20,939 nucleotides of DNA, from IMG/VR virus record IMGVR_UViG_3300023223_000536, positions 1-20,939 of that record, one strand, 5' to 3'. The first letter of the stretch is position 1; the number at the start of each line of letters is the position of its first letter. This stretch comes from a virus. This document shows, piece by piece, positions 92-20,895 of the stretch. The notes below the pieces were generated by a model that saw only the letters and a program-made list of their open reading frames with translations, did no database searches and was not told the DNA's origin. The position numbers and the translations under genes are program-made.

Positions 92-240
92 GCAAATCCA
101 GCCAAGCAGACTTTAAAGACAAATATGACCGTTTATTGGAGGAAGATATTGAATGGTTAAGAAAACAAGATTGGATCAACCCAACCGAGAATGGTGGGAT
201 TCCTATACCAGTTTTCACACAAGAGGAGAAGATGAAATGA
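88..240 (+). CDS. Small hypothetical phage protein (50 aa)
   Basis: A 50-codon ORF from ATG 88 to TGA 238-240. It is charged and probably helical in its N-terminal half (DKYDRLLEEDIEWLRKQ), and a Pro-rich stretch (GGIPIPVF) follows. I do not recognise a family. Support comes from position: it fills the space between two genes exactly, overlapping the upstream stop (ATGA 88-91) and the downstream start (ATGA 237-240). No good Shine-Dalgarno is visible before its ATG, so it probably relies on coupling to the gene upstream. It occupies the region that a longer frame of the next gene (from ATG 153) would otherwise claim. Confidence 0.6.
   Translation: MSKSSQADFKDKYDRLLEEDIEWLRKQDWINPTENGGIPIPVFTQEEKMK
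223..228 (+). promoter_or_regulatory. Ribosome binding site fixing the start of the SSB-tip protein
   Basis: GAGGAG at 223-228 lies 8 bases before ATG 237 and lies inside the end of the 50-residue ORF. It favours ATG 237 over the in-frame ATG at 153, which has no comparable site. Confidence 0.6.
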
Positions 241-596
241 AACTAAATGAAGTTTATAAAAGTGGCGGCAACTTCCTAAAAGCCGAAGACTTACAGGGCA
301 AGACTATTCGCCTTACCATTGCTGAAATCAGCACTCATACATTTGATGAGGGAACGCCCAAAGAAAAGACTCAGTTAGTTCTATCTTTTGTTGGCAAAGA
401 AAAACGATTGGGACTTAACGTAACCAACGCCAATTCTATTGCTAAGATATTGGGTGATGATACCGATTCATGGCCTAATGGTGAAATTAAGGTATTTCCT
501 ACTACTACTGATTTTGGTGACAGAAAAGATGTGCCTTGTATTCGGATAGTAGAGGAAATGCCACCTGAAGTTGATGACGAAACAATCCCATTTTAG
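237..596 (+). CDS. Probable ssDNA-associated phage protein with SSB-type C-terminal tip
   Basis: A 119-residue protein starting at ATG 237, chosen for the GAGGAG site and the ATGA overlap with the ORF upstream. The body resembles a common small phage protein found in recombination/replication operons: FLKAEDLQGK, then a beta-rich section, then LGLNVTNANSIAKILGDDTD and a closing beta strand (CIRIVEE). The protein ends in an acidic segment and DDETIPF, which closely resembles the DDDIPF tip of bacterial SSB. That tip is known to recruit recombination and replication enzymes. The next gene is a Gp157 homologue, which fits a DNA-metabolism operon. The ssDNA-binding role is inferred from this tail and context. 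I do not claim a complete OB-fold match. Confidence 0.7.
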   Translation: MKLNEVYKSGGNFLKAEDLQGKTIRLTIAEISTHTFDEGTPKEKTQLVLSFVGKEKRLGLNVTNANSIAKILGDDTDSWPNGEIKVFPTTTDFGDRKDVPCIRIVEEMPPEVDDETIPF

Positions 597-598
597 CC

Positions 599-1075
599 AT
601 GAATAAACTATACGAGATATCAGATCGCTACCTACAAGCCCTCAGTTACTTTGAGGGCGACCTTGAGGAAGATGCAGCCAAAGATACCCTTGAATCCATA
701 GAAGGCGAAGCAGAGGAAAAGGCGCTGTCTATCGCTAAGTTTGCAGGTAATCTCAAAGCTGAAGCTGTAGCCATTGATAATGCTATCAAACAGATGCAGG
801 CAAGGAAGAATGCTTTATATAGTAAATCAGAGTGGTTAAAGAATTATTTGAAGATCAATATGGAAGCAATGGAAATAAGCGAGATTAAATGCCCTTATTT
901 TGTCCTCAAGATTAAGAAAAATCCTCCCTCTGTTGTTATTGATGACGAAAACCTTATCCCGGATGAGTTTAAATCTGAAGTGATTACTATCAAAATAGAT
1001 AAGGCGGGTATTAAGAAAGCAGGAGGATGTGACGGAGCAAGCCTGGTAAGCGGTACTAGATTGGATATTAAGTGA
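599..1075 (+). CDS. Siphovirus Gp157 family protein
   Basis: A 158-residue protein matching the Gp157 family (Pfam PF05565, named after Streptococcus phage Sfi21). Features seen: N-terminal YEISDRYLQAL; a long helical coiled-coil section at about residues 30-95 (ending in the LKNYLKINME helix); then the family-typical passage FVLKIKKNPPSVVIDDENLIPDEF and a C-terminal KAGIKKAGG...GTRLDIK. Gp157 proteins sit in phage early operons beside recombination or replication genes. Their biochemical role is not firmly known, and some have been linked to phage resistance. The ATG lies two bases after the previous stop and has no clear Shine-Dalgarno, so translation is probably coupled. It overlaps the next gene by 4 bases (GTGA). 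Confidence 0.92.
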   Translation: MNKLYEISDRYLQALSYFEGDLEEDAAKDTLESIEGEAEEKALSIAKFAGNLKAEAVAIDNAIKQMQARKNALYSKSEWLKNYLKINMEAMEISEIKCPYFVLKIKKNPPSVVIDDENLIPDEFKSEVITIKIDKAGIKKAGGCDGASLVSGTRLDIK

Positions 1076-1287
1076 AAGTCCTCAAGAAATGTCGATTATG
1101 TGAGAAATATAGAGATCATTACATGCGTAAAGCAGGCACACCCCATTCTACTTGTTGTGAGTGTATGAATAAATTGAGAAGAAATATAGGAGCAATATAC
1201 CGAGACGAAGTAAAAGGTCTTGTCCAAGCTAGACACATCACAGCCTGTCATGGTAACGGGCCTTTTCGGAATTGGAGGATAGAATGA
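1072..1287 (+). CDS. Small Cys-rich, putative zinc-binding protein
   Basis: A 71-residue basic protein starting at GTG 1072, whose codon overlaps the Gp157 stop as GTGA. Cysteines form a CxxC pair at residues 8 and 11 and a CCxxC group at about residues 29-32, the spacing of a small treble-clef or ribbon type zinc site. An HNH nuclease is not supported, because no HNH core is seen. The next in-frame ATG (about 1123) would delete the first CxxC, so the GTG start is preferred. The role is unknown. The small, basic, Cys-rich character suggests a nucleic-acid or host-protein binding accessory factor (inference). Confidence 0.7.
   Translation: MKVLKKCRLCEKYRDHYMRKAGTPHSTCCECMNKLRRNIGAIYRDEVKGLVQARHITACHGNGPFRNWRIE
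1274..1278 (+). promoter_or_regulatory. Ribosome binding site before ATG 1284
   Basis: GGAGG at 1274-1278 is 5 bases before ATG 1284. It decides between this ATG and the in-frame TTG at 1272, which would lie across the site itself. Confidence 0.75.
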
Positions 1288-1538
1288 AAATTAGAGATGG
1301 TTATGCAAGAATAAATGGTGATGATACAGAATATGATTTGCCAAGCGACAGTTTAGAAATCATAGCTGATGATGGGCGGGTACTGTTTGATATTAATATG
1401 CTTAAAGATGCAATAGGAATAGATTTACGTTCTGGCGATGTATGCAAGCACAAGGGAGAAATGCTCGATGACCGTTTTTCAATACAGCCCGTTGCCTCCA
1501 ATATGATAAGGATAATCAAAGAAAAGTATCCATCATGA
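1284..1538 (+). CDS. Hypothetical phage protein (84 aa)
   Basis: An 84-residue acidic protein with ATG 1284 overlapping the previous stop as ATGA and a strong GGAGG 5 bases upstream. The N-terminal half looks beta-rich (YARINGDDTEYDLPSDSLEI, then DDGRVLFDINM). The C-terminal half has a short amphipathic helix ending in RIIKEKYPS. I do not recognise the family and see no catalytic motif, signal peptide or membrane segment. It belongs to the same coupled early operon, and its stop overlaps the start of a 14-codon ORF (ATGA at 1535-1538). Confidence 0.75.
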   Translation: MKIRDGYARINGDDTEYDLPSDSLEIIADDGRVLFDINMLKDAIGIDLRSGDVCKHKGEMLDDRFSIQPVASNMIRIIKEKYPS

Positions 1539-1579
1539 GAAGCTACACTACACCAGAACTATTAGGAGAGAAGGGATGA
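1535..1579 (+). CDS. 14-codon mini-ORF bridging two genes by ATGA overlaps
   Basis: ATG 1535 overlaps the preceding stop (ATGA 1535-1538), and its own TGA (1577-1579) overlaps the ATG of the NinX-like gene (ATGA 1576-1579). The encoded peptide, MRSYTTPELLGEKG, resembles nothing I know. The 3' part of the ORF carries the purine-rich GGAGAGAAGGG that serves as ribosome binding site for the next gene. It may be a coupling device that carries ribosomes across the gap, the remnant of a lost gene, or chance. Confidence 0.35.
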   Translation: MRSYTTPELLGEKG

Positions 1580-1992
1580 AAACAAGTGAATTGATTGGTG
1601 CGGAGTTAGATTACCACGTAGCTAAGGCTGAAGGATTAACTCTTAAATGTGGTAGATGCGGAGGGGCTCTAGCAGCATCTCAGGATAAAGGTTGTGTATA
1701 TGGAGATTGTTCATACAGAGGTGAGGATTGCAAAATCCCATTAAAAGCTGCTTTTATAGTAAGGAATTTAGTTGGGGCGTTTAATCCCTCCTCTTATTGG
1801 GATCAATGTGGGCCGCTACTAATTAAATATCCTATATGTATTACTATCCACGACCAAAGAAGAGTTGTAATCCTACAAGGCTCACACGATGAAATTTTAA
1901 GCTCTGAGTCTCACGAAATGGATGAAAATATTTTGCCAGCTATTTGTCGTTGTATTGTTTCAAGCGTTTACGGGGAAGAAGTAGAGAGTTAG
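1576..1992 (+). CDS. NinX-like protein (DUF2591) with inserted Cys cluster
   Basis: A 138-residue protein. The opening MKTSELIGAELDYHVAKAEG and the later NPSSYWDQCGPLLIKYPICI match the two conserved blocks of the DUF2591/NinX family (PF10765), found in the nin region of lambdoid phages. The C-terminal AICRCIVSSVYGEEV also fits. The family's function is unknown. Unusually, residues 25-52 between the two blocks hold five cysteines (25, 28, 40, 45, 52), CGRCGG then GDC and DC, as in a small zinc knuckle. ATG 1576 has a purine-rich site (GGAGAGAAGGG) just upstream. This is the last confident gene of the plus-strand operon. Confidence 0.85.
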   Translation: MKTSELIGAELDYHVAKAEGLTLKCGRCGGALAASQDKGCVYGDCSYRGEDCKIPLKAAFIVRNLVGAFNPSSYWDQCGPLLIKYPICITIHDQRRVVILQGSHDEILSSESHEMDENILPAICRCIVSSVYGEEVES

Positions 1993-2003: not shown

Positions 2004-2123
2004 GTGCCACAAATAAAGGCCGTAACCCCTCACTCCACCGCCATGCTCCGGCTAATACTGGCTAACCATTCAATAATTGGCACGGTACTAATTCTGGATT
2101 CTCTTGGCCCACAGGAACATTAA
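2004..2123 (+). CDS. Possible 39-aa ORF, perhaps a truncated helix-turn-helix gene
   Basis: GTG 2004 with AGGAGG at ideal spacing opens a 39-codon frame ending at TAA 2121-2123, beginning VPQIKAVTPHSTAMLRLILANH. The first 35 residues could form the opening helices of a small winged-helix protein, but this is only a visual impression. The final 21 codons lie antisense to the 3' end of the fibre gene. It could be a real short peptide, or the 5' stump of a gene cut off where the two transcription units were joined. I cannot tell these apart from the sequence alone. Confidence 0.35.
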   Translation: MPQIKAVTPHSTAMLRLILANHSIIGTVLILDSLGPQEH

Positions 2124-3105
2124 GAAAATCCTGGGTCAGCTTGGCTATAGTGGACGAATGGATAATATCATCATCTTGTACAATTGCTGTCCCGTCACCG
2201 TTACTTTCAAGTAAATCTCCTATCTCACCGGGGCCAGTCATACGCACAGGATAATCCCCCGTAGTGGCAACATAGAAATCATAGTCCCATGTGTTGCTGT
2301 CGTCTGGGTGGTTATCATAGGCATTGTCATCATCCCATCTTTCAAAGATACCCGCTACTTTCTTAGTACTTTTAGTGGTGGAGACACAAGATCGCATACG
2401 TTGCTCGTTATCTTTCTTAGTCACCGTCCCTTTTCCTGTCCCCTCCAATCCATCAACGACAAGGCGTTTTCTAATAGGTACTTTTACTTTCTTTTTCTTT
2501 ACAATTACAGTCTCTTCTTCTACCCAATCTTCATAGTACCATTCACACTTTTCATTAACATACTCCATGACTGTGCCGCGTTTAATATTATCTCTACGTT
2601 TTGGTGAAGCTATTGGTAGTTGAGAAAGGAAAGATAAATGCGCTCCATTATAGGATACGGTTGTTCCTGATACTGATATAGAACCTTCTACGCTACTGGC
2701 TTGAGAGAAAAATACTAATGTTCCGTCATCTGTTAGTCGGTTAAGACCAATCTGCTCTTCTGAAGTAGAGACTATTTCTACTTTTCCTGAAGCAGAAAGA
2801 TTAATACCGTTTGTGCCTGTACTGGTGTTAACCCTACCAACAATGAAATTACCACTTGCATCAGACCTTAATGTTTCAGATCCAGCTTGTTCAAGAGTCA
2901 GAACATCATCAGCGGGATTTGTCCATTTGGTATCCCCGTCAGCGTCGATGATTAAATCATTGCCGTCTAGATCAGGAGCATCAATCCATGCCTTTAATAC
3001 ATCGGTTAACTGAGTAAGAATAGTAGCCCATTTAACTGTATTAGCATCAGTTTGTGACCCGTCATCAGGTGGAGGTGAAGTATTATAATTTTCTAAAATT
3101 GCCAT
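2062..3105 (-). CDS. Tail fibre / appendage protein
   Basis: A 347-residue protein, last gene of the late operon, where podoviruses usually place their fibre. The N-terminus (MAILENYNTSPPPDDG, residues 1-16) looks like a short virion-anchor segment. Residues 119-162 (IGLNRLTDDGTLVFF...GSISVSGTTVSYNGAHLSFLSQ) match a passage recurring in phage fibres before a C-terminal head domain. Residues 237-325 (RSCVSTTKSTKKVAGIFERW, then YPVRMTGPGEIGDLLESNGDG and SSTIAKLTQDF) look like the conserved C-terminal fibre domain, where a G-x-GDLL hairpin and a late 'tiaK' strand recur. Residues 198-231 are strongly basic (VKKKKVKVPIRKR). Host-receptor binding is the likely role. An 88-base gap separates it from the gene upstream. 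Confidence 0.75.
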   Translation of the reverse strand: MAILENYNTSPPPDDGSQTDANTVKWATILTQLTDVLKAWIDAPDLDGNDLIIDADGDTKWTNPADDVLTLEQAGSETLRSDASGNFIVGRVNTSTGTNGINLSASGKVEIVSTSEEQIGLNRLTDDGTLVFFSQASSVEGSISVSGTTVSYNGAHLSFLSQLPIASPKRRDNIKRGTVMEYVNEKCEWYYEDWVEEETVIVKKKKVKVPIRKRLVVDGLEGTGKGTVTKKDNEQRMRSCVSTTKSTKKVAGIFERWDDDNAYDNHPDDSNTWDYDFYVATTGDYPVRMTGPGEIGDLLESNGDGTAIVQDDDIIHSSTIAKLTQDFLNVPVGQENPELVPCQLLNG

Positions 3106-3127: not shown

Positions 3128-3226
3128 ATGAACACAAATGAATTTTTAATAAAACTATCATTGATCATATTCTCGTTATTTCTGGGTTATTGCTTAATTG
3201 CTGGTTTGATTGCTGCTTTTCAGTAA
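3128..3226 (+). CDS. Candidate 32-aa single-pass membrane peptide, antisense (doubtful)
   Basis: On the plus strand, ATG 3128 opens 32 codons to TAA 3224-3226. The product is a polar start (MNTNEF) followed by an almost unbroken hydrophobic helix (LIKLSLIIFSLFLGYC, then LIAGLIAAF). It fills the 88-base gap between two minus-strand genes and runs 33 bases into the 3' end of the ejection-protein gene. There is no Shine-Dalgarno and no promoter I can see, and A+T-rich DNA easily encodes hydrophobic frames. I list it because the gap is otherwise empty and phages do encode such peptides. Confidence 0.15.
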   Translation: MNTNEFLIKLSLIIFSLFLGYCLIAGLIAAFQ

Positions 3227-4822
3227 CTCTACAATCAAAGCCCTGTCTAGTCGCATTTGCTTAATTAATGCTGGATTTGTCGCTGTCTTAATCGCTTTAT
3301 CAGTTTGTTTTAAAAGTAACGCAATGCCTTTTTTCGTTGTGGCGCTCATAATGGCTTTGCCAGTTGCGTAAGTTATTAATCCAGTTAGAACTAATTTAGT
3401 AAATATTGGGGCAAACATCGCCGAAGCGCCAAGACCGCCTACCCCAAAAGCAAGGGCCATAAGTTGATTAAACTCTCCCCTTATAGGTAAAGCTCTCATC
3501 GTATTCTGCCATGCTCTTAAAAGCACATTTGCTGCTTCATCTCCTGCCTTTGGAGCGATATTATCCATTGCACGGTAAAGATTTGATTGTATTCTCAAGG
3601 ATTCTTTAACACTGACATCAGGAACTTTTTTAGCTATCAAAGCATTAGCGGATTCCCTTACTTCCCTTAACGCAATAGAAATAGCATTTTCTTGTTTTGG
3701 ATCAAAGATATTACTACCTTTTTGTGATCGTACCCATACGTCTAATTCTTTCCTTGCCTGCAAAAGGCCTGAAGCGGTAGGCTTGTTGGCCTTAACCAAA
3801 TCATCCATTTTCCTGATAATCTTAACTGCTGACTTCTCAGCATCACCTACGATCAAGGGATTTGACTTTAAATTAGTCTTGATTACTTTGCCAGCATCAA
3901 GCAATTCCTTTCTCGATATAGGCACATCATTTTTTAAAAGAGTAGACTTTAACGTATTAGCCTGTTTACCAAGTTCAGCTTGAATGGCTTCATGGTTTCC
4001 TTGCAACGTCTTCTTTGTAGACACGCCAGGAATTTTGTTGACCGTTTCAGCTATCGCTACTTCCTTTGGGGAAAGGGCAACTTGTTTACTCTTTAAAACG
4101 CCTTCCTCGGTCGTCCTTGCTACTTGTTCTGTTCTGACTGCTGTGGTTTGTTTGGGTTTAATTAGATCATCTACAAAAGCCTTTTTACTCTGCGCGGTTT
4201 GCTTGACAGCTTTTTCAGCTACTTTCTCTCCGACCCTGCCTATTGCCCCTGAATCAGCCGCCACGAGCTTTGCCTTAACCGGGAATAAGATTAAACCTAT
4301 ATCTACCACAGCCTCTATATTTCGTGCGGCGCGTGGGTTCTCTAAACGAAACTGTTGATAGGCTTCGACGCTTTGTGTGGCGGCATTAAGCCCTTTTTGG
4401 CCTATTTCAGTATTCATAAAAGCTACGGCTGCTCCGGTAGCGCCTTCTTTGATGGAATCAGGAGTAATTGCAGCAAGACCTCTTCCTGCACTTATTACAA
4501 CTTCCCCAAGAAAATCCATTAATGCACCAGCCCCCTGCTTGCCAGCAATTTGTAACATTGCTTCTGCTACAGTTTGTTCTCCAGCCTGGACAGCAACCAT
4601 TATTTCCTCATTCATGGCAACCCGTTTATCAAGGTCTTCCTGGAATCTCTCAAGAAAACTTAATTTCTCTGGTTCGCTAGGGGTTGATAATACGGGCGCA
4701 CTGTCACCTAAAAAATCTTGCGCACTAACTACTTCTCCAGTTTGAAAACGCTGGACATCATCTATCACGGGCGGAGCAAAAAACTCCTCTTGACTTACAA
4801 CTTGTCCTGGTTGAAGGGCCAT
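3194..4822 (-). CDS. Putative DNA-ejection / internal virion protein (P22 gp16 position)
   Basis: A 542-residue, Ala/Lys-rich, largely helical protein. The N-terminal 40 residues hold an imperfect repeat (GQVVSQEEFFAPP and GEVVSAQDFLGD). The middle (about 200-420) is mostly charged helix. Residues 454-491 form a hydrophobic Gly/Ala-rich segment (ALAFGVGGLGASAMFAPIF, then VLTGLITYATG) that could enter a membrane. It is the third of three consecutive ejection-type genes before the fibre, the place and approximate size class of P22 gp16. No lysozyme or transglycosylase motif is seen, unlike T7 gp16. The start overlaps the previous stop as TAATG at 4822. Assignment rests mainly on gene order and composition. 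Confidence 0.65.
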   Translation of the reverse strand: MALQPGQVVSQEEFFAPPVIDDVQRFQTGEVVSAQDFLGDSAPVLSTPSEPEKLSFLERFQEDLDKRVAMNEEIMVAVQAGEQTVAEAMLQIAGKQGAGALMDFLGEVVISAGRGLAAITPDSIKEGATGAAVAFMNTEIGQKGLNAATQSVEAYQQFRLENPRAARNIEAVVDIGLILFPVKAKLVAADSGAIGRVGEKVAEKAVKQTAQSKKAFVDDLIKPKQTTAVRTEQVARTTEEGVLKSKQVALSPKEVAIAETVNKIPGVSTKKTLQGNHEAIQAELGKQANTLKSTLLKNDVPISRKELLDAGKVIKTNLKSNPLIVGDAEKSAVKIIRKMDDLVKANKPTASGLLQARKELDVWVRSQKGSNIFDPKQENAISIALREVRESANALIAKKVPDVSVKESLRIQSNLYRAMDNIAPKAGDEAANVLLRAWQNTMRALPIRGEFNQLMALAFGVGGLGASAMFAPIFTKLVLTGLITYATGKAIMSATTKKGIALLLKQTDKAIKTATNPALIKQMRLDRALIVELLKSSNQTSN

Positions 4823-9976: not shown

Positions 9977-11092
9977 CTAATTACTTAGGTTGGTTGCAGC
10001 CACACGAATACCACGAATCCAGTTACCGTTAAGAACGGTTCCTGCATACCATGATTTCCATGCCATTGACGTGATTTCGTCAAACGGATCATCAATACCA
10101 GAAGGCATAGATGTATTCCGGCCTTTAACAATCAAGCTGATTGGGCCTGGATTACCCTCACCACTAATAAAGGAGCCATCAGGCATTTGCTGACCTAAGC
10201 CAACTGCGCCGTCTGCATCTCGACCCTTTATGATGATTGTGTACAAATCAGCCGCACTTGATGTCAACCTGACATCGCCTGAAGCTGTCTGACCCGCGCC
10301 TACGTCAATGGAAGCCTCTGGTGTCTGGATAAAGCGTACTGATTGACCAGCAAGACCATAGGAACCAAATTCACCCGGCATAGTCTGTACCTGCCCTGCG
10401 TAAGTCTCAATTGATTTAAAACCAGTGATCTTACTTACGTCATATGCCACATGAGAGTGGCAGAATCCCCAAAGGGAAGGTAGGTGCGGAGTTGTGCCGA
10501 TATTGGTAGAACCCGTTGTCATGGGCGCAAAAGACATCGTGAACAGGGTGACGAGTTCGTTGATGGAGCGATCTAAATCGCCAATACTCACAACGTCCTC
10601 AACCAGACCATCACTAGCCTCGTTATTTGCAAACCGTAAGGTTGCATTATCTTCCACGGTGTTCCTGTGGAGGAAGTTTAAAGACCGACCAGCCGAAATA
10701 GCCAAAGTCATCACAATTCCGTTAGTCGTATGGTTGAAGTTAAATACATCAACTTCCTCATTCACGTAGAAGAATTGTCCAAACTTCGATACGGTAGCTG
10801 TTACGTCGGTACGGTGAACAACATCCGGTGTACGCCCCATACCAAACGCTGCATTACCTGTTATTTCTGATAATGCCGTGGTGGAAGGTGCGATAGCCGA
10901 AGAGTTATCCGCCGATGTGTTGAACCGTCTCCATCCAATAGTAGCTGTGCCTGCGTGTTCACGTAAATCTCCAGGTTGACTACCGATGAAATAGACGGCT
11001 AATGGGCGAGCATTTCTTAAAAGCGTCTGCTCAAACGCGACATTTACCGGCTTTGGTACTTCGCCGTCTGTCGATGATACTGTTAATGCCAT
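9977..11092 (-). CDS. Major capsid protein (N4-gp56-like)
   Basis: A 371-residue protein resembling the N4-gp56 major capsid family (PF13252). The N-arm runs FEQTLLRNARPLAVYFIGSQ. It continues with a 'P-domain-like' stretch of strands (TATVSKFGQFFYVNEEVDVF), the conserved HSHVAYDVSKITGFKSIETYAGQ segment, and GQSVRFIQTPEASIDVGAG. The C-terminal strand runs WKSWYAGTVLNGNWIRGIRVAA. Several hundred copies should form the icosahedral shell. N4 gp56 is about 400 residues, so this copy is slightly short. Upstream is a scaffold-like gene, and downstream a GC-rich hairpin that could set it apart from later genes. The start ATG 11092 follows GGGAAACTATC. Confidence 0.85.
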   Translation of the reverse strand: MALTVSSTDGEVPKPVNVAFEQTLLRNARPLAVYFIGSQPGDLREHAGTATIGWRRFNTSADNSSAIAPSTTALSEITGNAAFGMGRTPDVVHRTDVTATVSKFGQFFYVNEEVDVFNFNHTTNGIVMTLAISAGRSLNFLHRNTVEDNATLRFANNEASDGLVEDVVSIGDLDRSINELVTLFTMSFAPMTTGSTNIGTTPHLPSLWGFCHSHVAYDVSKITGFKSIETYAGQVQTMPGEFGSYGLAGQSVRFIQTPEASIDVGAGQTASGDVRLTSSAADLYTIIIKGRDADGAVGLGQQMPDGSFISGEGNPGPISLIVKGRNTSMPSGIDDPFDEITSMAWKSWYAGTVLNGNWIRGIRVAATNLSN

Positions 11093-13747: not shown

Positions 13748-14145
13748 CAGGCATGTCCCGGCGGCAAGACTATCTGACCAGAATATCTTTCAAGTAAACC
13801 AACATTCAACATAGCATCCACGGCTTCATGGGCAGCGTGTTTAGCTGATCCTATTCTGCCTTTTACCCTGTCTTCTGCTTTCATGTGCGTATCATGGTTT
13901 AATTTAAAATATAACGGAAACCCAATTACCATTCTGCCCATCTGAACACCAAAAGCTGAAATATAATAGCCTTCCAACATCCATTCATCGCCCGGTTCAA
14001 TATTCAATGAGGTAGCGTCATGATGTGGCCCACCTTCAGCATAATAGATGTCCTGTCCTTTATAGTTTTCCCTTTCTGTCATTTTTGCACCATTAAAGGC
14101 CCAATGTTTTTGTAAGGCTTCGGGGACTAATTCTGCATCTATCAT
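13747..14145 (-). CDS. Hypothetical protein between terminase and portal (132 aa)
   Basis: A 132-residue protein joined to its neighbours by ATGA (14142-14145) and TGATG (13745-13749) overlaps. It has an N-terminal helix (AELVPEALQKHW), a Gly/His-rich centre (GGPHHDATSLNIEPGDEWMLEGYY) and a basic helical stretch (KAEDRVKGRIGSAKHAAHEA) before VDAMLNVGLLERY. I do not recognise it. No small terminase is seen in the window, but there is no DNA-binding motif strong enough to call this one. Confidence 0.65.
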   Translation of the reverse strand: MIDAELVPEALQKHWAFNGAKMTERENYKGQDIYYAEGGPHHDATSLNIEPGDEWMLEGYYISAFGVQMGRMVIGFPLYFKLNHDTHMKAEDRVKGRIGSAKHAAHEAVDAMLNVGLLERYSGQIVLPPGHA

Positions 14146-15653
14146 GGATTGGCCCTCAAGCCTTTAAAAGAACTTTTATATTTAGGGATATTTTCAGTAT
14201 ACGCATACCTCAACATCATCAAGGCATACATCACCGCTTTAATCGTGTCTTCTCGTCTGTTTACAATTCTGCCTTCTTTTCGGTGGAATGATCTAAACTC
14301 TTCAAAAAACCAATTCAAATCACTAAAAACTAAAAATCGTCCTGTCTTCATTCGTTGTTCCATCTCATCAATAATCGGCCATTGATCTTGTGCGCCGCCT
14401 ATGTCCTTTTTGTATCGTGCTGAAATAGGAAGTAAGTTCAATCCATGCTCTCGATAAACATCGGCTATGCTCTGACCAGATGACTTGTCCCGGGTTAAAT
14501 CAGAAGTCTTATGTCCGTCGTGCGGCCATGAAATAGGTACCCACTTATTTCGCTTTTTAAAGGCTTCAGCATGATAGAGGGAATCCGCCGCTTCCTTTCT
14601 GTATTCATCGTACAAATAAACTATATCCCTGTCTCTGTCGTGCGCTAACCAACCGCCTGCTGTGGGATGGCCCACGCCTACCCCGAAGTCTATACCGGCG
14701 ATACGGGCAAAATGGCGCGGTATTTCAAAACGAGGAGTTTTAATTTCATCCTCATTCACATCGAATACCCGTCCTTCTCCCATCATTGGCACTCCTAGCG
14801 TCCTGGACTCTACCGAATGGCCTGGATAGGTTTTTCTTAACCTTTCCTTGTCTTCTTCTTTTAAATGTCCCACATCGTCCCACGTTGCCCGTGAGATATA
14901 AATCCCGTCTGCTTTGGGATACATGAAATGCCGGGTTAGATCGGTTTCGCCAAGTAAAGGCGTAAGGCCTGCTAAAAGCATCCCAGATGATCTAAATATC
15001 CTCGTCTGACATTCCTCAAAGATTTTCTTCTGAGAAATATCATTATCATCCGGTTGTTCGTCTAAATAAATAACCTCCGGTGCGGCGGTCTGCCATGCCT
15101 TCCATCCTTGGGCATAAGTTTTAAAGATTAAATGTGAATAACCATAGTTGCCTTCTACAATAACCTGATGAACCGTATTCGGCACACCAGATTGACGTAA
15201 TTTTGGTCTTCCTTTAATTCTGTCCTTTGGGATAAGCCCGGTTCCTAACGAGTCTTCCAGATCTTCGCCTAAAAGAATCTGCTGTACACCCTCAACTTGT
15301 AATGAGGCATCAATCGCCCCTACCCATGCTCTGACTTTCTTTTCGAACTTAAATCCCTTGTACCACTTGGGGTATTCGCCTAAAAGATGCGCGACGACTT
15401 CCCAAAGTCCTGAAAGAGACTTGCCGACTCCGTTAGCACAGATATTTGCTTTTTCTTTATCCTTGGTGTTATGAAAATCTAACTGCCATGATTTATTCGA
15501 CCATTGCTCCCAGTTTTCTTTTATAAAAAGTTTCCCATTAGGACATAGGGTATCAGGATGGCCATAAGGACGATATTGCTTGAACTTTCTGTAACGAAGC
15601 CTTTCTTCAAGAGAGTCTCTGGACTTCGTTAATACCTCAAGCTGCTTTGTCAA
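14142..15653 (-). CDS. terL: Terminase large subunit
   Basis: A 503-residue packaging motor with both expected domains. In the ATPase domain the Walker A is ANGVGKS at residues 73-79 (an Ala where many have Gly), the Walker B is VIYLDE at 194-199, and the coupling motif is GLTPLLG at about 229-235. In the RNase H-like nuclease domain the candidate acidic residues are Asp322 (GIDFG), Asp379 (PHDG) and Asp469 (EDTIKA). The gene starts at TTG 15653, 17 bases inside the preceding small gene. No in-frame ATG precedes the ATPase domain, so the rare TTG start seems real and may keep expression low. A small-subunit gene is not apparent upstream. Confidence 0.93.
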   Translation of the reverse strand: MTKQLEVLTKSRDSLEERLRYRKFKQYRPYGHPDTLCPNGKLFIKENWEQWSNKSWQLDFHNTKDKEKANICANGVGKSLSGLWEVVAHLLGEYPKWYKGFKFEKKVRAWVGAIDASLQVEGVQQILLGEDLEDSLGTGLIPKDRIKGRPKLRQSGVPNTVHQVIVEGNYGYSHLIFKTYAQGWKAWQTAAPEVIYLDEQPDDNDISQKKIFEECQTRIFRSSGMLLAGLTPLLGETDLTRHFMYPKADGIYISRATWDDVGHLKEEDKERLRKTYPGHSVESRTLGVPMMGEGRVFDVNEDEIKTPRFEIPRHFARIAGIDFGVGVGHPTAGGWLAHDRDRDIVYLYDEYRKEAADSLYHAEAFKKRNKWVPISWPHDGHKTSDLTRDKSSGQSIADVYREHGLNLLPISARYKKDIGGAQDQWPIIDEMEQRMKTGRFLVFSDLNWFFEEFRSFHRKEGRIVNRREDTIKAVMYALMMLRYAYTENIPKYKSSFKGLRANP

Positions 15654-15855
15654 TGGCTTTTGCTCTTACTCCGGGTTTTTCACAAACAAAACCATGTAGA
15701 CGGTTTTCATAAAAGATGGGCCTATACCCTTGTTCAAGGATTTCCTCAAGATACCGCAAGGTATACTTTGTATCCGTTTCTTTATAATATGGATCAAAAG
15801 GACAACGTACTACAGCGTAATGGTCTGTTTCTGAAATTATACGAACATCTTTCAT
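15637..15855 (-). CDS. Small hypothetical protein before terminase (72 aa)
   Basis: A 72-residue protein with a good GGAGAA site before ATG 15855. It begins with beta strands (KDVRIISETDHYAVVRCPFD), followed by a helix (YTLRYLEEILEQGYRP) and a strand (IFYENRLHGFVC). A family is not recognised. It overlaps the terminase start by 17 bases, so terminase translation from TTG may depend on it. It is unlikely to be a conventional small terminase, because it lacks an N-terminal helix-turn-helix and is too short. Confidence 0.7.
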   Translation of the reverse strand: MKDVRIISETDHYAVVRCPFDPYYKETDTKYTLRYLEEILEQGYRPIFYENRLHGFVCEKPGVRAKAIDKAA

Positions 15856-15864
15856 TTATTTCTC

Positions 15865-16464
15865 CTATGGTAAACCGAGTAAATTCATGGTGCGGCCAGA
15901 AAATGACCATACCTTGTCTTCAAAGATATTTTTCTTCGCATTGCTCCAATATTTAATTTCTCCGTCCCTGTCCGCAACCTCATGGACAAAATTAGTCTTT
16001 TCCCAAGGCGCTTCCCAAAAATGGCCTGAGTCATCCAAAGGCACACCGCATAACCAAATCTTATCATAGCCTAATTCAAGTCCGGTATAGACTGCATTTA
16101 ACGAGGATGTTCCATGCCCCGGCCACGGCCATGTATGTTCTCCACCCTTTTTATTGGAATGAGTTTGAATTCTTTTCTCGTACCTTGACTGGTACTGATC
16201 TCTTCGTGTTTCAATCCATTTGGGTAAAAATCTATGATTGTTAGAATAAGCATGAGTAATGTCTCCAGGGTAGAACATGATCATTTCATTCACACACATT
16301 ACATGCGGAGTCGCGTCATGATTCCTTGCCATCCCTGCACGTTTTAAATCATCCCATACACCCCGACCACCTGAAGCGATAATAAGAAGTCCTGAATACG
16401 TCCCTGCTATCTCTGGCATTATCATGTACTTTTGATCAATACCGAAGCTAGTAAAATCTACCAT
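15865..16464 (-). CDS. Rossmann-like protein of the glycan cassette (DUF115/GT29-like pattern)
   Basis: About 199 residues from ATG 16464, which overlaps the previous stop. The frame stays open to ATG 16491, and neither start has a clear Shine-Dalgarno. An early strand-turn (SGLLIIASGGRGVWDDLKRA, residues 24-43) is followed by VMCVNEMIMFYPGDITHA, then GHGTSSLNAVYTGLELGYDKIWLCGVPLDD (117-146). This 'G-x-S-x-N-A...G...i-l-G-v-D' layout recurs in DUF115 and GT29-type proteins that bind sugar nucleotides. The basic middle section carries HTWPWPGHG. It may act on an activated sugar or glycan together with the transferases upstream. That is inference, and the family is not firmly identified. Confidence 0.6.
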   Translation of the reverse strand: MVDFTSFGIDQKYMIMPEIAGTYSGLLIIASGGRGVWDDLKRAGMARNHDATPHVMCVNEMIMFYPGDITHAYSNNHRFLPKWIETRRDQYQSRYEKRIQTHSNKKGGEHTWPWPGHGTSSLNAVYTGLELGYDKIWLCGVPLDDSGHFWEAPWEKTNFVHEVADRDGEIKYWSNAKKNIFEDKVWSFSGRTMNLLGLP

Positions 16465-17594
16465 GTACTTAGCATTAAAACATGATCCCATTCAGTCTTA
16501 GTACGATTCGCTACGCCAAAAACATCCCTTACCCATCTAGCCCATTCTGTATCGGTCAAGATCGTCACATGGGCATTTTGTTTATTTGGTAATATAGCTC
16601 TGGCCTTTTTCAGATGAATAACAAAAATAACTTTATCTGATTTTTGTTGGATCTCGTTAAATATCCGTTTCACATCACCGATTAAAATATGTTCCATCAC
16701 ATCAACACATAAGACTAAATCAAACTTTCCTTTGGGCATTCTCTTAAATGGGCCAATGGCCGGATCGTATTTCTGAATATCCCTTTCGCCGTCTTTATAA
16801 TAATGCGCTGAGAGATCGCATCGCCCACAACCAAAGTCTAAAATCCTTTTTGGGTCTAATTCTTTAACTATTGGGGTGATATAATCTAGATATAAATTCC
16901 CTGAATCCCCATAATGCGACTCAGAGTGTAATGTTCTGTACTGAGCTAATAAATCGTGATAGCCTTCTAAATTCTTTTTAAAGGCAAACGTAACAATATC
17001 TTCTCGCCCTGCTTCTCTTTCAAACTCCTGTACTTCTAATAACCGAAAGCGGTACATCGCCATCCAATTAGTTAAGCCGTCCCTTGTAAAGTAATATAGG
17101 TGTTCTCCTGGTCGGTAATGTTTTGATTCTCTTATGTATCTTAATCTAAGAATGGGAACGCTGATAAACACATAAGAATCTTTCGGCATCTTACTGAAAT
17201 AAGCATTAGGACTCTCTACATGTTCTATTACATCCCAAAAAGTAAAGGCTTTAAAGTCTTTAAACTGATCTGAATATAACCCGTTCTCGGCTAACCACTG
17301 TAAGGCTTCGGGATTAATATCAAAACCAAATGTTTCAGGACGTTTTTTAATAAATTCACCTGATCCAATTCCTACGTCTAAAACTTTTCCTTTAACATAC
17401 TTATTAACTAACTTAATTCGCCCCTCGTTTATCTTTATGGCGATTTCCTGATCTTCATAACTTAAACATTTATTAAAGTAGTCTAACCCATAATCAACGC
17501 GTTTGGACATATCCCGTTGATAAGCAACTCCGCGCTCTGTGATGACTAGATCATCATTCTTCCTACAGTCAAAACGTCGGATTAGTTCATCCAT
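16458..17594 (-). CDS. Two-domain SAM-dependent methyltransferase
   Basis: A 378-residue protein holding two class I methyltransferase cores in one chain. Domain 1 has motif I VLDVGIGSGEF (71-81), an acidic ribose-binding FDIN (91-94) and DVIEHVESP (121-129), with the closing HLYYFTRDGL near 165-174. Domain 2 has motif I ILDFGCGRCDLS (251-262), a YDPA acidic strand (276-279) and LCVDVMEHI (295-303). Both motif I copies keep their glycines, so both may bind S-adenosylmethionine. The domains differ enough that this is a fusion or old duplication, not a recent tandem copy. It overlaps the upstream methyltransferase gene by 13 bases. Likely substrates are sugars or small molecules (inference from neighbours). 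Confidence 0.82.
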   Translation of the reverse strand: MDELIRRFDCRKNDDLVITERGVAYQRDMSKRVDYGLDYFNKCLSYEDQEIAIKINEGRIKLVNKYVKGKVLDVGIGSGEFIKKRPETFGFDINPEALQWLAENGLYSDQFKDFKAFTFWDVIEHVESPNAYFSKMPKDSYVFISVPILRLRYIRESKHYRPGEHLYYFTRDGLTNWMAMYRFRLLEVQEFEREAGREDIVTFAFKKNLEGYHDLLAQYRTLHSESHYGDSGNLYLDYITPIVKELDPKRILDFGCGRCDLSAHYYKDGERDIQKYDPAIGPFKRMPKGKFDLVLCVDVMEHILIGDVKRIFNEIQQKSDKVIFVIHLKKARAILPNKQNAHVTILTDTEWARWVRDVFGVANRTKTEWDHVLMLSTW

Positions 17595-18052
17595 GAAACC
17601 ACCGAAAAACTCCAGTTCATGTCCCTTTCGCTGAATAAAATATTACTAAACCCCATGTCCTTGAGAATATTCACCATCTCTTTTGGATACCATGAACTCT
17701 TATGTTTTCTACAGTTCTCTGGTTTCCAGTATTCCATATCAGGATGAGGTAGGTATAAGAATAACGCGCCTCCATTCTTCAGTCTGGTCTTCCAATGCTT
17801 CAGGGCTTCGTAAGGCTCCTTAAGATGTTCTAAACAATGAGAAGAAAAGATATAATCATATTCTTTCTCTGGTAGATCGTGTGCGTCATTGTCTAAAATC
17901 AAGTCAAACGGTAACGCGCCAGGAAAAGGCCATTTACCGCATCCCACATCTATTCCTTCTCCTTTACAAAACTGTTTTGCTATCGGGATGATATACTGAC
18001 AGGCATTACCCTCTTTTAAATAATCCGGGTAATCTTTACCTTTATACTTCAC
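17582..18052 (-). CDS. Class I SAM-dependent methyltransferase
   Basis: A 156-residue methyltransferase from GTG 18052. The N-terminal helix (DYPDYLKEGNACQYIIPIAKQF) leads to motif I EGIDVGCGKWPFPGA (32-46), then FSSHCLEHLKEPYEALKHW (69-87) and GGALFLYLPHPD. This is a short methyltransferase core of the type found in glycan clusters. The frame stays open to GTG 18118, but that would overlap the cupin gene by 77 bases and has no ribosome site. GTG 18052 gives an 11-base overlap. Methylation of a sugar, with the cupin and transferases around it, is the best guess. The sequence does not identify the substrate. Confidence 0.8.
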   Translation of the reverse strand: MKYKGKDYPDYLKEGNACQYIIPIAKQFCKGEGIDVGCGKWPFPGALPFDLILDNDAHDLPEKEYDYIFSSHCLEHLKEPYEALKHWKTRLKNGGALFLYLPHPDMEYWKPENCRKHKSSWYPKEMVNILKDMGFSNILFSERDMNWSFSVVSWMN

Positions 18053-18350
18053 GGTAAGAATCCGCTTCAAAATGCTGAGTGGAGAATTCAAATATTTCCG
18101 ATCTCTCAGCAATCCCACCGAATTGATGTTTAATTAAAGTCGGAACCTCTACCATATCTCCAGGGAGTAGTAGTCTTTTCTCTCCATCAAGCGTTAGCCA
18201 AACCTCTCCGCTTTGTAAATAAAATGTCTCGGTCTTTAGTTTGTGGTAGTGAAGGGAGCATTTCTTATCTTGGTAAATAACTAATTTCTTGCCACAATAT
18301 TTTTCATCATTATGAATCCAAAGCTCATAGCCCCATGTTTTTTCAATCAT
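18042..18350 (-). CDS. Cupin-domain protein (mannose-6-phosphate isomerase type II-like)
   Basis: A 102-residue single cupin. KTWGYELWIHNDEKYCGKKLVI at the N-terminus is the opening typical of the C-terminal cupin of type II phosphomannose isomerases (PF01050) and of short stand-alone relatives. Metal ligands are visible: His34, His36 and Glu41 in LHYHKLKTE, and His75 in VPTLIKHQF, with the turn GEVWLTLDGE and LLPGDMVEVP between. A sugar-phosphate isomerase or epimerase role is possible, but single cupins have many functions. The ATG overlaps the previous stop as ATGA at 18347-18350. Confidence 0.8.
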   Translation of the reverse strand: MIEKTWGYELWIHNDEKYCGKKLVIYQDKKCSLHYHKLKTETFYLQSGEVWLTLDGEKRLLLPGDMVEVPTLIKHQFGGIAERSEIFEFSTQHFEADSYREV

Positions 18351-19072
18351 AGAAGCTTATGGAGAGAGTCATCAAATGTAATCCTTTGTGAAGGATTGTC
18401 TTTAAGCCATTGTAGTTCTAAATCGGGTCGGTGGCGGATTGGATCACGTGTGTTCACTTTCCCCCATTTCTCATTGACGTTATGAATCTCTGAAGTAAAG
18501 AAATCAAACCCTGTTATGTATATTTCACAATCAAATGATAGAACATCAAGAATACAACTAAACCCTGTGGTTGGCATATGGCCTTTCAACGAAGCCATAT
18601 ACGCTTGCAAGCGTTCTTTTGTTGGAACGTAGGTGTCACAAAACCAAAAGTTTTTACGTCTTTGATAAACTGCTTTGAATTGTATGCCGTGGGTCTTGCC
18701 GTTTGCTACATGCCAGGGGGAATTAATAAAATCCTCATTGGGTAATTTACACATACATAGGTTAACGCCATGTTCAATTAACTCTTCCTTTTGTTTCTTT
18801 ATTGAAACGCCGAAGAAACTGTAATACACATCTGTTCTATAGCCTGTGAATTCATCATTCTTGTAATTATTCACCCGTATTACAATATCATGGGAATCAA
18901 TAAAGTCTATTTCATTATCTAAACAACTTGGGCCGCTGCCTACTATTGCGATATTTTTCCCTTGAAACCTTTCGGCAACATCCATATAAGAGACAAAGTT
19001 CACAGAAAGGTCATTAGGGTTTTCTCTATATTCTGGTTGTCTATCACATGGTACGACGTTGGTTTGTGGCAT
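18347..19072 (-). CDS. GT29 (sialyltransferase-like) family protein
   Basis: A 241-residue protein with the sialylmotif layout of glycosyltransferase family 29. Motif L is NIAIVGSGPSCLD...IDSHDIVIRVNNY (40-70). Motif S is MPTTGFSCILDVLSF...EIYITGFDFF (166-192). The very-small motif is RHRPDLELQWL, with His214 and Glu219. Family members transfer sialic acid from CMP-sugar donors, but the phage and bacterial branch is poorly characterised, so the donor here is open. ATG 19072 has AAGGAAA a few bases upstream but overlaps the preceding GT9 gene by 73 bases. Met30 (18985) would avoid the overlap but has no ribosome site. Confidence 0.78.
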   Translation of the reverse strand: MPQTNVVPCDRQPEYRENPNDLSVNFVSYMDVAERFQGKNIAIVGSGPSCLDNEIDFIDSHDIVIRVNNYKNDEFTGYRTDVYYSFFGVSIKKQKEELIEHGVNLCMCKLPNEDFINSPWHVANGKTHGIQFKAVYQRRKNFWFCDTYVPTKERLQAYMASLKGHMPTTGFSCILDVLSFDCEIYITGFDFFTSEIHNVNEKWGKVNTRDPIRHRPDLELQWLKDNPSQRITFDDSLHKLL

Positions 19073-19746
19073 ATTTTCCTTGGGGTTATGGAGCTTATTC
19101 TCTGATCAGAACAATCAAGCCCACGGGCTGACCAGACAGCGAGACATTTTTTATTCAAGGACTCGGCTAAAGGTATCATGCCTGAGACTTGCCCCACCAT
19201 CCTGGTAGATTGCGCAGCGAGGTCGATTAAGTCTGTGACTGAGGTTTTATTGACTAAATCTACATCAATGTTTTCAAGGTTGAACCGGGGGCGTCCTTTC
19301 CCAACTTGAACGACAGTGAAATTAACCCTAATGGCGGCGAGTATGGCATCGATGATTCTACAATCTGGGAAGAGTTCAGTTCCATAAGCGTCGTTTCTAT
19401 CCATCGGGTTTCTTGGCATGTAGACGAGTAATATTGGTTTTTCAAATTCATATTTCTTTTGTATCTCCCAGTCTAAAATTAATTCAGCTTCTACCCCGGC
19501 CTCAGTACACACGTTGTCAAATTGTGTGCCAGATTCAAACTTCCTTTTAGAATAGTGCGCTAATATATCGATATTCTGTCGGGTAAAGGGTGAGACTTTT
19601 ACATCGAGTTGAGAAAAGACCTCCGGCCAATCACAACAGACCTCTATCCTTTCTCCTTGGTTAACAAGTTCTCTAGCAATAGCCTGGACGTATAAGGCAT
19701 CGCCAAGACCTGAGCCGCCCCTGATTCTAACGGTATACCCTCCGGC
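19000..19746 (-). CDS. GT9-type (heptosyltransferase-like) glycosyltransferase, no canonical start
   Basis: The frame is open from just after TAG 19747-19749 to 19000, about 248 codons. It begins with the GT9 N-terminal Rossmann signature YTVRIRGGSGLGDALYVQAI. The C-terminal half has LLVYMPRNPMDRND and MVGQVSGMIPLAESLNKKCLAVW, the nucleotide-sugar binding block of GT9 enzymes. The first ATG/GTG/TTG in frame after that TAG is GTG 19512, which would delete the N-terminal domain core. ATG 19752 is in frame but is followed at once by TAG. GGAGGG at 19738-19743 sits just before the domain. A non-canonical start, frameshifting from the upstream gene, or a base error are all possible. The 3' end overlaps the GT29 gene by 73 bases. 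Confidence 0.68.
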   Translation of the reverse strand, partial: AGGYTVRIRGGSGLGDALYVQAIARELVNQGERIEVCCDWPEVFSQLDVKVSPFTRQNIDILAHYSKRKFESGTQFDNVCTEAGVEAELILDWEIQKKYEFEKPILLVYMPRNPMDRNDAYGTELFPDCRIIDAILAAIRVNFTVVQVGKGRPRFNLENIDVDLVNKTSVTDLIDLAAQSTRMVGQVSGMIPLAESLNKKCLAVWSARGLDCSDQRISSITPRKICHKPTSYHVIDNQNIEKTLMTFL

Positions 19747-20386
19747 CTACATGACCCAATCGAATACTTGGATCTAACATTATCTTGCCGCCAACCCCAC
19801 TCCAGCGATCACAAAACGCATAGTCCTCTGAGCAATACCAAGAGTCTTCCCACGTGTCTTCTCTGACTACATGTGTGTCAAAAAAAGCATAGACTTCGCC
19901 TACATGGCCTTCCTTGTGTCTCAAAGAGGTGTATAAATCGGCCATTTTCTCAAATACACAGCGTTTTATCATCAAAAACCCCGTTCCGGCGTAATCTATC
20001 TCCGTGGGGCCGTCAAACTGATCCAAATCCACCAATTCACCGTTTTTCCATGCGGTCACGTCCGCCCCTTCTTTTTTCATTGGATAGGCGGCGGTAACAA
20101 CATCGTGCTCTTGAAGCAAATTCCAGAGTTTCGCTACATCATCTGCATGAAACTGAATATCTGCGTCAATGAACATAAAAGCACTGTATTCCTTTAATTG
20201 TTCATCAAACATAAACCGTGCCACAGCCGTATTCCTGGCACGGGTAATTAAACTTTCATTAGTGGTAATTAAAAATTCATGTTTTATATTATTTTGTAAT
20301 AATGCTTCTTGAAGGTTCAAACACGATGTAAAATATTCTGCCGTACATTGCCCCCCGAACATCGGGGTGGCGAATAATATACTCAC
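19727..20386 (-). CDS. GT-A fold glycosyltransferase (GT2-like)
   Basis: A 219-residue protein starting at GTG 20386, overlapping the gene before as GTGA. Visible GT-A features are MSILFATPMFGG (1-12), a helix around SLITRARNTAVARFM (45-59), the metal-binding DAD within FMFIDADIQF (74-76), YAGTGFLMIKR (132-142), the catalytic-type Glu-Asp in CSEDYAFCDRW (185-195), and the late His of LGHVG (210-214). This small form is common in phage and uncultured viral genomes. It should transfer a sugar from a nucleotide donor. The acceptor is unknown. The last codons overlap the start region of the GT9 gene by 20 bases in another frame. Confidence 0.83.
   Translation of the reverse strand: MSILFATPMFGGQCTAEYFTSCLNLQEALLQNNIKHEFLITTNESLITRARNTAVARFMFDEQLKEYSAFMFIDADIQFHADDVAKLWNLLQEHDVVTAAYPMKKEGADVTAWKNGELVDLDQFDGPTEIDYAGTGFLMIKRCVFEKMADLYTSLRHKEGHVGEVYAFFDTHVVREDTWEDSWYCSEDYAFCDRWSGVGGKIMLDPSIRLGHVGRRVYR
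19738..19743 (-). promoter_or_regulatory. Shine-Dalgarno-like GGAGGG at the GT2/GT9 junction
   Basis: GGAGGG on the minus strand lies inside the last codons of the GT-A gene, 8 bases before its TAG (19727-19729). It could recruit ribosomes for the GT9 frame from a non-canonical codon such as ATC 19725, or stimulate a +1 shift as the internal Shine-Dalgarno does in prfB. No ATG/GTG/TTG lies at normal spacing. Confidence 0.5.
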
Positions 20387-20895
20387 GTAAATAGACTATT
20401 GGCTTTTTGTACCTTCTTTCTAAAATCCTCTTCTTTGGTTTCAAGAAACTGCGTTGCGTCCTGTAGGGACTGTTCTTTTGCTGAGAGTCGTTGTTCACGA
20501 TGTAAGATATTCTCTTCTCGGATATCGTGGGTATCCTTAGCTTGAGTTTGTAGCCGTTGGGCCTCGTTATTGGCGTTTCTGGCGTTTAAAGTCAGTTCAT
20601 CAGCAGTTTCTTCAGCGTCAATAGCTTCCTGCTGTGTTCTATCTGATAATTCTTCACATTCTGTTTCAACACGTAGTTTGTGAGCATTTGCTTCCCTTCT
20701 GATTTCTTCAGCTTGGGCCAGGGTATCGACAATGCCTTTCAATCCTTTTATCTCGGCTATATTAGCCTCTTCCAGGGCCAGTCTTTTGTCAATCTCTTCA
20801 CACATCGCCAGATACTTTTCAGGCTCTTTAAAAACAGTTAATAAGGACATCGCTTCTAAATTAGCCTTTTTAATTTGTTGTGGATTTATATTCAT
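20383..20895 (-). CDS. Coiled-coil hypothetical protein (170 aa)
   Basis: A 170-residue protein dominated by charged helix. Residues 25-165 are Glu/Lys/Gln/Ala-rich with heptad-like spacing (LAQAEEIRREANAHKLRVET; ANNEAQRLQTQAKD; QRLSAKEQSLQDATQFLETK). The N-terminus is MNINPQQIKKANLEAMSLL. There is no signal peptide or enzyme motif. It could be a structural or assembly protein, since such coiled-coil genes are common in late phage operons, but I do not recognise a family. Its ATG overlaps the previous stop as TAATG (20893-20897), and its stop overlaps the GT-A start. Confidence 0.75.
   Translation of the reverse strand: MNINPQQIKKANLEAMSLLTVFKEPEKYLAMCEEIDKRLALEEANIAEIKGLKGIVDTLAQAEEIRREANAHKLRVETECEELSDRTQQEAIDAEETADELTLNARNANNEAQRLQTQAKDTHDIREENILHREQRLSAKEQSLQDATQFLETKEEDFRKKVQKANSLFT

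Follow-up and report, generated by a model that had tools for sequence, protein, structure and literature searches.

The seven overlapping genes upstream of the terminase gene (terL) in a 20,939-base IMG/VR-type virus record, the whole of which is referred to here as the window, appear to be one variant of a glycan-building locus with changeable content, which in a clade of short-tailed phages sits between terL and the late genes upstream of it and whose target is most likely the virion, a reading that we give an even chance of being correct. An earlier note on this DNA had taken the seven genes as one complete set. Comparison of relatives reveals instead a two-gene core, a GT-A-fold glycosyltransferase (GTA) and a protein with a predicted sialyltransferase-type fold (ROSS), which is inherited with the head genes, and a remainder that is swapped. 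The novelty lies with the clade-wide variable locus and its core, not with this particular combination of seven genes.

Organization and enzyme content of the locus

The called genes from 20895 to 2062 lie on the minus strand, in a run that includes the terL, portal, scaffold and capsid genes; portal and scaffold were assigned from gene order and conservation, and the major head protein is the phrog_1357 match inside the run (9977-11092). ORF calling yields seven consecutive overlapping minus-strand ORFs at 20386-15865, in the order GTA, GT9-like, GT29-like, cupin, MT1, DMT and ROSS, followed by a 72-aa ORF and terL (Table 1). The observation of seven overlapping ORFs inside the late operon is thus real, the set forming a same-strand run with terL and the major head protein, and it is not due to chance, since the GT9-like, GT29-like, MT1 and double-methyltransferase genes recur at the same slot in another phage contig. 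The set had also been placed directly upstream of the terminase; it is upstream but not strictly adjacent, because the 72-aa ORF intervenes. On the opposite strand, window positions 153-1992 (+) carry early-type genes in divergent orientation that face the late operon, among them homologues of Gp157 and NinX.

Table 1. Features of the locus and its flanks in the window.
Feature	Position	Strand	Evidence or remark
170-aa coiled-coil-like ORF upstream of GTA	20383..20895	-	no significant family (Pfam, PHROG)
GTA, GT-A-fold glycosyltransferase	19727..20386	-	phrog_1574 (E 8.6e-35); DxD-like FIDAD
GT9-like (GT-B) glycosyltransferase	19000..19731	-	Pfam Glyco_transf_9 below cut-off; start codon uncertain
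GT29-like glycosyltransferase	18347..19003	-	Pfam Glyco_transf_29 below cut-off; homologues in L159, L156
Small cupin, sugar-isomerase/epimerase type	18042..18350	-	Cupin_2 (2.2e-8; 34.1 bits, above cut-off); phrog_7851 (4e-32)
MT1, class I SAM methyltransferase	17582..18052	-	Methyltransf_23 (3.8e-10; 40.2 bits, above cut-off)
DMT, two fused SAM methyltransferase domains	16458..17594	-	Methyltransf_23 (1.2e-20; 74.3 bits over two stretches, above cut-off); phrog_6564 (4e-50), phrog_24759 (2e-16)
ROSS, predicted sialyltransferase-fold protein (CstII/Maf/MptE superfamily)	15865..16464	-	alignment, AF2 model, profile
72-aa ORF between cassette and terL	15637..15855	-	conserved in L002, 40% over 58 aa
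terL, slot anchor	14142..15653	-	Terminase_6N/6C; Terminase_6C 1.4e-16

Three starts were corrected from homologue alignments, namely GTG 19003 for the GT29-like gene (longest-ORF start 19072), GTG 18052 for MT1 and, as the likely start, ATG 16464 for ROSS, so that overlaps between adjacent genes shrink to a few bases. The GT9-like ORF has no ATG, GTG or TTG near its conserved N-terminus, where an SD-like GGAGG precedes GTT 19731 and ATC 19725 (window 19742-19723, minus strand); this could reflect a non-canonical start codon, an error in the base sequence or coupling to the stop of GTA. A promoter and terminator scan gave counts lower than in shuffles and was hence uninformative.

In Pfam, GTA scores slightly below the GT2 and GT8 cut-offs. 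A four-sequence GTA profile searched against solved structures returned STIV A197 (2c0n, E 3e-7) as its sole match, and the DxD-like motif (FIDAD/FIDGD) is kept in the homologues; judged by sequence, GTA is a relative of this Sulfolobus virus glycosyltransferase. PMC10551542 describes A197 as an essential glycosyltransferase that is thought to glycosylate the STIV coat protein. A GTA-type domain also occurs in another podovirus (L008, MW202691), within a 425-aa protein (19953-21230) encoded between a P22-like coat gene and a tail accessory factor.

ROSS, previously labelled Rossmann-like, is now assigned to a sialyltransferase-type fold. No Pfam family exceeded its cut-off in a scan of ROSS; its homologues (22 sequences) gave a good alignment, and the AF2 model is confident (pLDDT 90.3). 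Foldseek alone found no significant PDB match, and structural comparison by VIA gave tied Z values of 9-11 to CstI/CstII (9.0-10.5), Maf, HPPK (MptE-type) and SteA, at sequence identities as low as 7-17% in the structural alignments. CstI, CstII and Lst were the only matches above noise in the profile search (E 0.003-0.007 for CstI/CstII, the CstI value of 0.0032 covering a short stretch), and Pfam CST-I matched 2 of the 22 members, with a best E of 0.064. The CstII group is set apart through the VIA comparison and the profile search only, and these structural and profile matches together suggest that ROSS is most likely a glycosyltransferase of the sialyltransferase type. A kinase role would be compatible with the modelled fold alone, MptE/HPPK kinases and SteA being tied in Z. 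Marginal short matches were all that the ROSS and GT29-like profiles gave against 296 genomes of one bacterial phylum. Distant ROSS homologues are present in contigs of other phage types (L018:4660-5220, L019:7962-8546, L017:6996-7583 and L016:1502-2098).

The assignments of the other two transferases are weak at the sequence level, yet both proteins are conserved in other phages. The GT9-like protein falls below the cut-off of Pfam Glyco_transf_9 (E 0.012, 15.4 bits against 22), its profile had no match in the PDB, and its homologue in contig L159 has 39-41% identity. The GT29-like protein lies slightly below the cut-off of Glyco_transf_29 (E about 2-2.6e-4, 21.3 bits against 23), with other members unmatched, and its profile did not match solved sialyltransferases in the PDB. 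Its homologues in L159 (46-47% identity) and L156 (53%) surfaced only in the capsid-based sample described below, single-protein patterns having found none among phages and IMG/VR records. Comparison by eye of these three sequences indicates that a sialylmotif-like pattern is kept, with GSGP...RxN, PTTGF...GFDFF, IHN and H191-x4-E196. A single-sequence structure prediction for the GT29-like protein (pLDDT 31) was left out of the reasoning, and the one match to it among genome contigs, a NadR-like protein, was judged to be chance. The three transferases proposed in the earlier note, GT-A, GT9 and GT29, are thus retained, the latter two weakly, but the sialyltransferase-type fold of ROSS raises the number of candidates to four.

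Of the sugar-type cupin proposed at first, the cupin fold holds, but the sugar role derives from weaker matches to lyxose isomerases only; the protein resembles cyanophage cupins annotated next to nucleotide-sugar genes, and no counterpart turned up in the other sampled slots. The suggestion of up to three methyltransferase cores is borne out, with one SAM-methyltransferase core in MT1 and two in DMT. MT1 has a homologue in L159 (54% identity), and DMT is matched at full length in L159 (58%) and by its N-terminal domain alone in L156.

Variation of the slot across relatives

Initial IMG/VR searches by ROSS and by GTA showed that many contigs carry both genes ahead of terL. Since that sample had been picked by the two proteins themselves, sampling was repeated with a capsid query, which gave 41 loci (40 from IMG/VR, plus MW202713) where the sequence upstream of terL spans 1.2 kb or more. 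Glycan-modification-type genes occur in the slot in all 41 loci, a sample in which some contigs are near-duplicates and from which the family database was partly built. GTA was detected in 24 of the 41, ROSS in 29 and either of them in 35; a sensitive whole-record search found GTA in 13 and ROSS in 12 of 15 clade records. The search for clade members among isolated phages found none, and most proteins encoded ahead of GTA in relatives lack annotation.

The exchanged genes cover several enzyme classes, including transferases (GT8-like phrog_1962, phrog_14945, GT2 and GT-D), tailoring enzymes (FkbM and other methyltransferases, hexapeptide acyltransferases), radical SAM and sugar-synthesis-type enzymes (NeuB, MocA oxidoreductase and epimerase). 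Sulfotransferase-like proteins, matched by no Pfam or PHROG family, and an ATP-grasp-like protein were recognised by eye, and a DegT-type aminotransferase by its similarity to an MW202713 gene annotated as PLP-dependent. MW202713 is a distant complete podovirus (capsid 33% identity) with a TibC-like glycosyltransferase, further GT-like ORFs, a methyltransferase and the PLP-dependent enzyme at the same position. Outside the clade, six phages with related terL or capsid have no annotated glycan gene upstream of terL, and in four of the six a terminase small subunit and/or lysis genes are annotated there.

Several individual slots contain unusual genes. Upstream of terL, L201 and L202 carry NeuB, MocA oxidoreductase, DegT-like aminotransferase and epimerase genes, an apparent nonulosonic-type sugar synthesis set in a late operon. 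A radical SAM protein in L196 (1893-2945) is possibly an extra tailoring enzyme, and an ORF in L219 (836-1933) looks alike; L181 (733-2390) combines a GT-D fold transferase with a FlaA1-type (Polysacc_synt_2) dehydratase. In L020 (818-3133; the same ORF in L027), terL itself has an intein-like insertion of ~280 aa at Walker A (ANRVGK/CVTGDQ ... HHN/TYSAAPE), and a GIY-YIG-like ORF is located downstream of the capsid gene.

The accessory content appears to be independent of head-gene relatedness. L159, whose capsid is 51% identical, carries GTA, ROSS, GT9, GT29, MT1, an additional methyltransferase-like ORF and a full-length DMT before terL, and L156 has GT29 with the DMT N-domain alone, whereas L002 and L147, with closer capsids (72% and 67%), have quite different accessory genes. 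Mantel correlation with capsid identity was high for GTA (r 0.60) and ROSS (r 0.71; p 0.001 for both), as for the comparison genes terL (0.65) and portal (0.74), and low for the exchanged phrog_1962 transferases (0.20), which may in part be paralogues, and for the sulfotransferase-like set (-0.19, n 7).

Proposed function and rival explanations

In the proposed pathway, GTA and ROSS would begin in the cytoplasm, as particles assemble, by linking an initial sugar and an acidic one to a phage protein, and exchangeable enzymes would then extend and tailor the glycan. Judging from enzyme families, the GT9-like and GT29-like transferases of the window would add further sugars, the cupin would adjust a nucleotide sugar and the three methyltransferase domains would O-methylate residues. 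Stepwise building and capping of a glycan, as first suggested, agrees with the enzymes encoded here and in all sampled relatives. The acceptor would be part of the virion, for instance a tail fibre, a decoration protein or the capsid; candidates in the window are the major capsid protein (9977-11092) and the tail-region ORFs at 2062-3105 and 3194-4822. More specifically, and with somewhat less than even confidence, the locus may be a hypervariable virion-glycan locus in which the inherited GT-A plus sialyltransferase-fold core starts the glycan on a structural protein, and horizontally exchanged genes for glycosyl-, methyl-, sulfo- and acyltransferases and for sugar synthesis make it phage-specific.

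The virion is favoured as the most likely target from the position in the head-gene operon, the co-divergence with head genes, the lack of a clear TM segment in any cassette protein, and precedent. The late-operon position noted initially holds throughout the clade, whose members all have the slot ahead of terL, and GTA and ROSS co-diverge with the capsid, a pattern that could reflect simple linkage. The ROSS homologues in the four other contigs point the same way, especially those of L018 and L019, which by-eye reading places next to apparent scaffold and capsid genes. As precedent, virion glycosylation by phage glycosyltransferases is reported for mycobacteriophages (PMC12363180), and methylation of capsid glycans has been proposed for PBCV-1 (PMC5408694).

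That the locus instead alters glycans of the host surface (LPS core, O-antigen or capsule), either at a late stage of infection or during lysogeny, and so blocks superinfection or adsorption of progeny to debris, is a serious rival because many relatives encode an integrase (5 of 12 long relatives, or 7 with weak matches, and also MW202713), even if we consider it rather unlikely. LPS and capsule tailoring typically involves GT9, sialyltransferase-type, acyl- and methyltransferases, and variable content could track host surface variation. However, the slot next to terL in the late operon is a feature of the whole clade, GTA and ROSS co-diverge with head genes, the cassette proteins lack clear TM segments, and the slot genes inspected include neither a flippase nor a GtrAB-type protein. 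A ROSS pattern scan of limited sensitivity across 84,980 bacterial and archaeal genomes was also empty.

It is distinctly improbable that the slot is a permissive insertion site filled with unrelated cargo that has no joint pathway. The turnover of accessory genes is high, and HNH and transposase-like ORFs occur in some slots (L022, L034), but nearly all annotated cargo belongs to one functional theme, and GT9, GT29, MT1 and DMT recur together in L159 at 39-58% identity. Hypermodification of phage DNA bases by the glycosyl- and methyltransferases is disfavoured as very unlikely: DNA-glycosylating phage transferases are known (work cited in PMC12619734), but GTA resembles A197 rather than a DNA glycosyltransferase, homologous slots hold genes that suit glycans (sulfotransferase-like, acyltransferase, NeuB and aminotransferase), and 12 long clade records contained no thymidylate-synthase-type hydroxymethylase (control matched in 9 of 14) and no Tet/JBP match (control also silent).

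If the virion is indeed the target, particles of this clade would show serotype-like glycan diversity encoded next to terL, built by core enzymes that are inherited and tailoring enzymes that can be exchanged. Virion glycosylation would be extended beyond mycobacteriophages, ROSS would represent a phage enzyme family with a sialyltransferase fold, and a testable question would follow, namely which selective pressures favour varied glycans on the particles.

Comparison with known systems

The predicted fold of ROSS is common to the superfamily of CstII/CstI (GT42), Maf and DUF115/MptE-like proteins, but its sequence identity to them is low, and kinases have the same fold. Phage seroconversion loci (Gtr, Oac) modify glycans through membrane flippases and transferases and are usually located outside the late operon; flippases or membrane transferases of that type were not seen here. 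In PBCV-1, capsid glycans are made by viral glycosyltransferases together with a predicted glycan methyltransferase (A064R combines a glycosyltransferase with a predicted methyltransferase), but this is a eukaryotic giant virus with six glycosyltransferases expressed early, whereas the present locus is a single late cluster carried by a tailed phage. STIV A197 (2c0n), the closest solved sequence relative of GTA, is likewise a viral GT-A enzyme, essential and with the major coat protein as its proposed target; it is a lone glycosyltransferase in an archaeal virus, and the portion of its description cited here mentions no comparable cassette. Mycobacteriophages Che8, Corndog and Myrna (Freeman et al. 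2023, cited through PMC12363180 and PMC12619734) use phage glycosyltransferases to decorate capsid and tail-tube proteins; the present locus, with its putative virion target, belongs to another phage group and differs in being variable, in its position beside terL, in its predicted sialyltransferase-fold core and in its many more enzyme classes.
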